Part shown: positions 36,115 to 37,124 of the stretch, one piece after another
Layout of the letters: each line of letters begins with the position of its first letter
How positions within the stretch are numbered: the first letter of the stretch is position 1
From: Cellulophaga sp. BC115SP
GTDB lineage: Bacteria; Bacteroidota; Bacteroidia; Cytophagales; Spirosomataceae
Assembly (NCBI RefSeq): GCF_009905545.1
Contig: NZ_JAAALB010000015.1
Location: forward strand, 62,001-126,000
Reading direction: 5' to 3'
DNA length: 64,000 nucleotides
Position numbers and translations under genes: made by a program
The notes under the pieces: generated by a model
Seen by the model: only the letters and a program-made list of their open reading frames with translations
The model's database searches: none
What the model was told of the DNA's origin: nothing

Positions 36115-36588
36115 TTAAGTCGGATTAGCAAACGGAACCGAACGATTTACAGACTCCTCCAATGATATAAATGTTTCAGTTCTCTGAATTCCTGCCACTT
36201 TTTGTATTTTATCGTGCAGTACTTCTCTTAGGTGAACGGTATCGCGACAAACAATTTTGGCAAAAATAGAATAGATACCTGTGGTGTAATTAATACTTAC
36301 CACTTCGGGAATCTGCATAAGTTGGTCTGCTACCTCAGCATACAGCGAACTTTTATCCAGATAAATACCTAGAAAAGCCGAAATATCCCAACCAAGCCTA
36401 GTATGGTCAACAATCAATTGAGAACCTTTAACAATTCCCATTTCTTCCATTTTTGCCATCCGAACATGGACTGTACCACTCGAAACATGGATTTTTTTAG
36501 CAATTTCAGTATAGGGCATAGTAGCATCGCTCATCAAAAGCCCTAATATTTTTAAATCAACTTGGTCAATTCCTGGTACTTTTTCCAT
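36115..36588 (-). CDS. Lrp/AsnC family transcriptional regulator
   Basis: A 157-residue DNA-binding protein, usual for the family. The N-terminal helix-turn-helix is AVPGIDQVDLKILGLLMSDATMPYTEIAKKIHVSSGTVHVRM-like (1-45). The C-terminal RAM domain (about 70-145) with VSINYTTGIYSIFAKIVC binds amino acids or related ligands. Divergent from the tRNA-like RNA gene, with about 200 bp between. A -7 match (TATTTTTG) is at 36673-36680. Confidence 0.93.
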   Translation of the reverse strand: MEKVPGIDQVDLKILGLLMSDATMPYTEIAKKIHVSSGTVHVRMAKMEEMGIVKGSQLIVDHTRLGWDISAFLGIYLDKSSLYAEVADQLMQIPEVVSINYTTGIYSIFAKIVCRDTVHLREVLHDKIQKVAGIQRTETFISLEESVNRSVPFANPT

Positions 36589-36727: not shown

Positions 36728-36759
36728 TTTGCAAAATATCAGAACACCTGTTAACTTTG
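36728..36759 (+). promoter_or_regulatory. promoter of the tRNA-like RNA (TTTG-20-TAACTTTG)
   Basis: TTTG at 36728-36731, a 20-nt spacer, and TAACTTTG at 36752-36759: the same spacing as the tRNA-Leu promoter and the same -7 box, including the following GCA/CA, as tRNA-Ala. Transcription should start near 36766, about 28 nt before the tRNA-like body. Confidence 0.85.
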
Positions 36760-36793
36760 CATTGTCAAGTTAAAAGAACAACGACACACACAA

Positions 36794-36953
36794 TGTAGGG
36801 TGATGAAATTTGGCAGACGTGCCCTCCTGTCTCGGGGGTGGTGATTACGGGATAAAGTTAGTATAATGCCTATCGCAAGATAGACTGGGGTTGACCACCA
36901 GATTTTGTACTATACCTAACTACGCCGTGGAGGTTCGAGTCCTTCTCCTACAG
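36794..36953 (+). ncRNA. tRNA-like RNA with a 90-nt structured domain in place of the variable arm
   Basis: Pairing found by eye: acceptor TGTAGGG (36794-36800) with TCCTACA (36946-36952), 7 bp; D arm ATG/CGT with a 12-nt GG-containing loop; anticodon stem CCCTC/GGGGG with loop CTGTCTC (anticodon GTC, 36829-36831); T stem GGAGG/CCTTC with canonical loop TTCGAGT (36934-36940). Between anticodon and T arms lie 90 nt (36839-36928) with their own fold: ACGG/CCGT; GTTAG-TATA with TATA-C-CTAAC; hairpin CTATC GCAA GATAG (GNRA loop); and hairpin CTGGGG TTGA CC-A-CCAG. The discriminator is G and CCA is not encoded. The D arm is nearly the same as in tRNA-Leu at 6701. Canonical promoter and terminator flank it. 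I do not recognise a named family. Alternatives are an aberrant functional tRNA, a tRNA-derived regulatory RNA, or a decaying tRNA with an insertion. Confidence 0.75.
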
Positions 36954-37092
36954 CAATTATCTGAAATTTTGGGGATATACGATTTGGCAAAATAAAATTT
37001 CCTGATTACCTTTATTCCCAGATTATCAGATTGACTACGAATATAAAAAAGTAGTTTTATTTGGTTTTTAGTTTGTTGATGAAGTGTAATTC
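36954..37092 (+). ncRNA. 3' domain of the tRNA-like transcript
   Basis: If transcription runs from about 36766 to the terminator at 37093-37124, the tRNA-like body is followed by about 140 nt. This part can fold into a long closed domain: ATCTGA (36959-36964) with TCAGAT (37026-37031) and GGGGATA (36971-36977) with TATTCCC (37013-37019). Whether it stays attached to the tRNA-like body or is cut off by tRNA-processing enzymes cannot be told from sequence. Confidence 0.45.
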
Positions 37093-37124
37093 AAAAAAGC
37101 AGTCTTACTGAGTCTGCTTTTTTT
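37093..37124 (+). terminator. terminator of the tRNA-like transcript
   Basis: A 10-bp stem AAAAAAGCAG / CTGCTTTTTT with an 11-nt loop ends in seven T on the plus strand. Confidence 0.88.

Follow-up and report, generated by a model that had tools for sequence, protein, structure and literature searches.

The window, by which we mean the whole stretch of 64,000 nucleotides analysed here, carries one copy of a gene for a tRNA-like RNA of class II (160 nt, 36794-36953, plus strand), and a gene for a regulator of the Lrp/AsnC family is its divergent partner. The features of the locus are as follows.

36115-36588, minus strand: AsnC-like regulator of the Lrp/AsnC family, divergent partner of the RNA (PDB 2cg4, NCBIfam)
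36728-36759, plus strand: Bacteroidota-type promoter TTTG-N20-TAnnTTTG, with TTTG at 36728-36731 and TAnnTTTG at 36752-36759 (sequence reading, enrichment among homologues)
36794-36953, plus strand: mature tRNA-like RNA, from T1 (36794) to the discriminator G73 (36953) (match to covariance model R1, covariation)
36794-36800, plus strand: 5' strand of the acceptor stem, TGTAGGG, containing U1 and G2 (invariant in 110 of 110 copies)
36803-36820, plus strand: D arm with a 3-bp stem and a class II-type loop, AAATTTGGCAGA, without a 20a base (covariation)
36822-36838, plus strand: anticodon arm CCCTC-CTGTCTC-GGGGG, with the anticodon GUC at 36829-36831 and C38 at 36833
36839-36928, plus strand: variable domain of 90 nt (covarying helices 4-7)
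36929-36945, plus strand: T arm GGAGG-TTCGAGT-CCTTC with a 5-bp stem (alignment)
36946-36953, plus strand: 3' strand of the acceptor stem, TCCTACA, and the discriminator G73 (C71, A72 and G73 invariant)
36954-37096, plus strand: 3' trailer, placed from the positions of promoter and terminator
37097-37119, plus strand: intrinsic terminator hairpin AAGCAG...CTGCTT followed by a T run (sequence reading)

The element and its sequence lay where the first-pass annotation had described them, and its account of a complete cloverleaf with a 90-nt insert was borne out by the 7-bp acceptor stem and the presence of all of the arms, the insert being the variable region. The anticodon stem, with its loop CTGTCTC, comprises 6 bp if the 26-44 pair is included. 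Within the variable domain, an outer helix (36840-36843 with 36923-36926) is followed by a conserved internal loop GANAAA/CUAA and an inner helix, together with a GNRA hairpin and a second hairpin having the loop GGUUGACCA. That loop, found in the long forms only, includes a GAC complementary to the anticodon GUC; both triplets are invariant where present, the shorter forms being without that hairpin, and a kissing contact between the two is possible in the long forms, judging by this complementarity. The promoter and terminator noticed earlier were likewise both read in the sequence, with TAnnTTTG occurring within 110 nt upstream in 93 of 126 distinct upstream regions against 9.3 expected, and a terminator-like signal in 60 of 126 homologous copies. 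The absence of an encoded CCA was correctly noted at first pass, although it carries little meaning, as the tRNA-Asp of the host likewise lacks it; the base 3' of G73 seemingly is always C across the copies, though CCA is seldom encoded. The likeness to tRNA-Leu also held in part, the class II body being shared but the acceptor end and anticodon being Asp/Asn-like, with GUC and G73 instead of a leucine anticodon and A73.

ARAGORN made no call over the RNA in the window, neither of a tRNA nor of a tmRNA, and Rfam at gathering thresholds gave no match over it, neither to tRNA (RF00005) nor to another family, with only junk matches at E≤10. The folding of the single window sequence was also unremarkable (z = −0.30), and since neither these programs nor the fold made a case for it, this one sequence alone proves nothing. 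The homologues, however, were informative. Using blastn, the RNA was found in 73 of 99 relatives, and RNAalifold on 59 distinct aligned copies gave a structure with changes on both sides in 18 of 30 pairs. With a 40-pair structure named by hand, 96.0% of the cells were paired and 25 pairs had changed on both sides, with double changes in 264 cells compared to 71.5 in shuffles; none of 500 shuffles attained any of the covariation measures, and sliding of the pairing partners made the signal collapse. The D stem (pairs 10-27 and 11-26), the anticodon stem, the outer variable helix, the inner helices and the T stem all covaried, while nearly all copies had a D loop of the GGCA type. Homologues with covarying stems, the lack of which would have spoken against the first-pass reading, were thus abundant, and no known Rfam family accounted for either the RNA or its insert. 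What is defined here is hence a new RNA family, missing from Rfam and passed over by ARAGORN. The proposal of a stable RNA derived from a tRNA stands in that the RNA is stable-looking and conserved, and very probably non-decoding.

A covariance model separated true members, scoring from about 78 bits upwards with lengths of 107–195 nt (the window RNA, at G000:C56:98794-98953, scored 158 bits), from matches of the tRNA-Leu/Ser type, which scored below about 60 bits with lengths of 79–87 nt. The RNA was found in most of the Cytophagales genomes searched, with members throughout the order except in reduced genomes and certain families; elsewhere in Bacteroidia its occurrence is patchy and extends to many other families. 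Named records containing it came from Dyadobacter, Spirosoma, Algoriphagus, Cyclobacterium, Flammeovirga, Saprospiraceae, Chitinophaga and Flavobacteriales. In one tandem array six copies lie about 190 nt apart (L032:1528-2637, plus strand), and Flammeovirga pacifica and Phaeodactylibacter xiamenensis (L315 and L295) each have five exact pattern matches in tandem arrays.

Across 110 copies, U1-A72, G2-C71 and G73 were invariant, and G34, U35, C36 and C38 were kept in 106. Positions 33 and 37, which are needed for decoding, had drifted: position 33 was T in 89 copies, G in 16, A in two and C in two, and position 37 was T in 98, G in six, C in five and A in one, i.e. a pyrimidine in 103. The aspartate identity set consists of G73, G34, U35, C36 and C38, with G2-C71 as a minor element, and Asp-to-Asn amidation by GatCAB is determined by U1-A72, with G1-C72 and U20a as the antideterminants of tRNA-Asp (PMC9976931). 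Compared with these published elements, the RNA has the AspRS set, in the loop in 106 of 110 copies and at G73 in 110 of 110, and has the features of a GatCAB substrate, with U1-A72 and neither G1-C72 nor U20a, both of which are found in the host tRNA-Asp. It thereby departs from tRNA-Asp, since all of the 110 copies have U1-A72 in place of G1-C72, and from tRNA-Asn, since the anticodon is GUC and not GUU. As read from its sequence, the RNA combines the AspRS identity set with the identity pair for GatCAB and has no 20a antideterminant. The invariance of these marks, seen together with the drift at positions 33 and 37, suggests that selection keeps the features read by AspRS and GatCAB and releases those read by the ribosome.

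These observations make it very unlikely that the RNA is a genuine tRNA-Asp isoacceptor that decodes and has an unusual variable arm, as its complete cloverleaf, its GUC anticodon and the U33 of 89 of the 110 copies could otherwise suggest. The host already has two ordinary tRNA-Asp genes, in addition to an ordinary tRNA-Asn (GUU), 20 copies have G, A or C in place of U33, position 37 was a pyrimidine in nearly all, many members of the family carry a bulge in the T stem, and the invariant U1-A72 would turn a decoding tRNA-Asp into a GatCAB substrate, leading to Asp-to-Asn misreading. That the RNA should be the sole Asp tRNA was rejected on the basis of the two normal genes, and an ordinary tRNA on the basis of the absent ARAGORN and Rfam calls. 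A tmRNA was also rejected, with an anticodon arm being present and ARAGORN giving no tmRNA here, as was a role of the conserved GGAYAAA strand as an Asp codon mimic, all four bases being found at the Y position. The host genome, finally, has seven tandem tRNA-Lys(TTT) genes elsewhere (G000:C152:205897-206905).

The divergent regulator had E. coli AsnC as its best solved relative (PDB 2cg4, E = 6.8e-30) and scored 155 bits with the NCBIfam AsnC model (NF008384), which is below the cut-off of 227 bits for that model, compared to 40 bits for Lrp; it is AsnC-like by these scores and not the curated E. coli AsnC equivalog. Of 105 loci across the class, 85 have its orthologue adjoining the RNA; the arrangement is head-to-head in 84 of them, and the remaining one is a two-copy locus that was scored as convergent. 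An asnC orthologue (E<1e-50) was found in 30 of 31 genomes with the RNA versus 22 of 49 without it, or 7 of 33 of the latter outside family f12. The genes downstream of the RNA differ between loci, and a cis-regulatory leader was rejected because no gene stands constantly downstream and the element ends in a terminator of its own. The asnA gene of E. coli is activated by AsnC, asparagine acting as the feedback signal (PMC8707732). The locus resembles that pair in that an AsnC-like regulator stands beside a gene known or, here, predicted to serve asparagine synthesis, which encodes a protein in E. coli and an RNA in the window.

We then read the divergent site in genomes that keep the asnC-like gene but lack the RNA. 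In four of these (G210, G243, G279 and G282), from two genera of one family, the site encodes an archaeal-type asparagine synthetase A, AS-AR, of 317–318 amino acids, so that the asnC-divergent partner in these relatives is an asparagine synthetase as in the E. coli pairing. The four genes, each divergent from the asnC-like gene, are located as follows.

L229:1856-2812, plus strand: AS-AR
L233:520-1473, minus strand: AS-AR
L234:2155-3111, plus strand: AS-AR
L235:508-1461, minus strand: AS-AR

The site protein matched the archaeal AS-AR of PDB 3p8t at 2.2e-57, and the two that were tested scored 319.9 and 313.4 bits with the NCBIfam asparagine synthetase A model (NF005054; cut-off 309); among 80 genomes, only these four had AS-AR over the cut-off. 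AS-AR thus shares its site with the RNA, but it is a protein enzyme and acts on free Asp. Other genomes of the same family have decayed tRNA-like remnants (51.1 bits in L231 and 17.9 bits in L236; also L232 and L237) at the asnC-divergent site, and possess AsnA. In these remnants, G73 and the GUC loop appear to be lost. Such degenerate copies in genomes that gained AsnA are what a functionless element derived from a tRNA, be it a pseudogene or mobile, could have left, but as an explanation of the family this is hardly credible, being refuted by the covariation, the invariant determinants and the synteny conserved across the class.

The remaining asparagine routes and the partner enzymes were thereafter compared between genomes. 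GatB, from which the presence of GatCAB was judged in genomes with the RNA, was found in 56 of 59 relatives and in all of the 45 tested that have the RNA, while the three without GatB were also without the RNA. AsnRS-family matches were found in all 59 genomes, over the cut-off in 57, with AsnB over the cut-off in 35 and AsnA in one. In eighteen genomes with the RNA, a few of them incomplete drafts, GatB is present and none of AsnA, AsnB and AS-AR is over the cut-off, and all 18 have AsnRS-family matches, over the cut-off in 16. Four genomes lacking the RNA had no asparagine route at all, whereby auxotrophy is possible. Mutual exclusion of the RNA and AsnB was not supported, with AsnB homologues over the cut-off in 27 of 45 genomes with the RNA and in 8 of 14 without it. 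Both AsnB homologues of the host are located among glycosyltransferase genes in a glycan gene cluster and may for that reason not be the housekeeping enzyme. AsnA was over the cut-off in 21 of 291 genomes of the order, most of which retain the RNA, giving a weak trend between the two.

In three genomes of one family, all lacking the RNA, GatB is fused to AspRS in a protein of about 1100 amino acids (1105–1106) that is encoded downstream of gatA.

L224:1254-4571, minus strand: GatB::AspRS fusion
L225:2950-6270, plus strand: GatB::AspRS fusion
L227:1330-3958, plus strand: GatB::AspRS fusion, cut by the contig end

The AspRS part, of bacterial type, has the motif RDHG, which it shares with enzymes that the PDB names tRNA(Asp/Asn) ligase, with RDKG in the host enzyme and RDLG in those of E. 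coli and Thermus. We take this motif residue to separate the discriminating from the non-discriminating type; the motif thus fits a non-discriminating AspRS in the fusion, a mark that the host AspRS seems to be without, as judged from this one residue. The fusion, and likewise the absence of GatB, was confined to genomes without the RNA (Fisher's test, p = 0.011 each, phylogeny being ignored).

Because the AspRS and GatCAB determinants are invariant, the neighbour is AsnC-like and a synthetase replaces the RNA at the locus, we regard the RNA as probably being a carrier tRNA that does not decode and would serve solely for the making of asparagine by AspRS and GatCAB. The decoy, sensor or regulator suggested at first pass is less well supported as a role. 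An RNA that regulates or senses asparagine homeostasis, charged with Asp or Asn, in which the charging state or the titration of AspRS, GatCAB or AsnRS would be the signal and the RNA no source of Asn, is an alternative that we think unlikely. The AsnC-like partner and the stand-alone transcription unit would suit it, a binding partner could be recognised by the conserved internal loop and hairpin loop within the variable domain, and synthetase regulators resembling tRNAs have been described (PMC9976931). It is, however, difficult to reconcile with the 18 genomes that have the RNA and no other asparagine source over the cut-off, or with an enzyme and not a regulator occupying the same site instead, and arrays of up to six copies fit a carrier better than a signal.

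As a carrier, the RNA would be matured by RNase P processing and CCA addition, with the 3' trailer trimmed off. Ordinary AspRS would load it with Asp, and, if discriminating, would not charge tRNA-Asn; GatCAB would then convert Asp-RNA to Asn-RNA, a step proposed because U1-A72 is present and the 20a base is missing. This misloaded GUC tRNA would be kept out of translation by its long variable domain and by the drift at positions 33 and 37; the bulged T stem that many members from the host family have may contribute as well. Asn would be freed by hydrolysis or by a putative deacylase and would then feed AsnRS, while the AsnC-like protein may sense asparagine and induce the RNA under asparagine shortage, as with AsnC and asnA in E. 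coli. We know of no dedicated hydrolase for release of Asn from the RNA. By our own estimate, spontaneous hydrolysis is probably too slow for bulk Asn supply, and would require many RNA copies, which the tandem arrays might supply. Also counting against the carrier are the restriction of the AS-AR replacement to one family with two genera, the AsnB homologues in 27 of 45 genomes with the RNA and the four genomes with neither the RNA nor any asparagine route, and U1-A72 in place of G1-C72 may slow the charging, since G1-C72 is reported to be important for bacterial AspRS and is strictly conserved in bacterial tRNA-Asp (PMC9976931).

The same identity elements would also serve an aspartyl or asparaginyl carrier for another end product, such as envelope, lipid, peptide or protein modification, and tRNA-dependent non-ribosomal Asp transfers do exist, e.g. 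that of ErdS (PMC9437257). This we consider quite unlikely, since the varying downstream genes include no conserved transferase gene adjoining the RNA, and its replacement by AS-AR indicates free asparagine as the product. In wider terms, we lean towards the view that many Bacteroidia make asparagine on a dedicated, non-decoding chimera of tRNA-Asp and tRNA-Asn, AsnC-type regulated and insulated from the ribosome, which proteins have replaced in some lineages.

The chemistry would itself be that of known tRNA-dependent asparagine synthesis, in which a non-discriminating AspRS and GatCAB act upon tRNA-Asn, as in Deinococcus, Thermus, Bdellovibrio and Staphylococcus (PMC4206432). The predicted enzymes, the order of Asp charging and amidation, and the U1-A72 and G73 elements are alike. 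In contrast to tRNA-Asn, the RNA has the anticodon GUC, a variable domain that is long and structured, and loop changes unsuited to decoding, and as a carrier separate from the translating tRNA-Asn it could be used with a discriminating AspRS; the tRNA-Asn route delivers Asn to the ribosome, whereas the product of the RNA would have to be released. What would be new, as far as the literature was searched, is the separate non-decoding asparagine carrier, of which we found no earlier description, subscription papers lying mostly outside the search. Such a carrier would explain the asparagine source in Bacteroidota that have AsnRS and GatCAB and no recognisable synthetase, a puzzle raised when Bacteroidetes were listed among the genera with AsnRS, GlnRS and GatCAB but lacking asparagine synthetase (PMC4206432). 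It would also be a widespread tRNA existing solely for metabolism, as an RNA cofactor of amino acid biosynthesis, and a natural case in which the identity for charging and amidation is split from decoding. Its RNA part would have been swapped for proteins (AS-AR, AsnA or GatB::AspRS fusions) in some lineages, and replacement of an RNA by a protein at the same locus would bear on the idea of some amino acids first arising on tRNA.

Among tRNAs with unusual bodies, tRNA-Sec, the selC* tRNA-Cys species and allo-tRNAs (PMC7609411) share with the RNA a class II body, unusual arms and recoded use, but they have a lengthened acceptor domain and a decoding function, whereas the RNA class has a 7/5 acceptor-T domain, a variable region of 40–90 nt or more and a predicted non-decoding role. 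In other families within the class, the variable domain is reduced to about 40 nt with the outer helix and traces of GANAAA/CUAA kept, and four loci there (L184, L187, L188 and L200) have enlarged D loops of roughly 24–38 nt. Staphylococcal tRNA-Gly species that serve cell-wall bridges are non-proteinogenic and kept off EF-Tu and the ribosome. They are thereby tRNAs specialised for work outside translation, as predicted for the RNA, but differ from it in their class I body, their role as cell-wall donors and their use of glycine, with no amidation and no variable domain. A reduced member of 76 nt, scoring 65.7 bits, was also found away from asnC (L223:1939-2014, minus strand); it is without the variable domain, has the loop CTATCTC with the anticodon AUC, and was called tRNA-Asp(atc) by ARAGORN. 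Several genomes of the same genus had their best matches in a similar score range.
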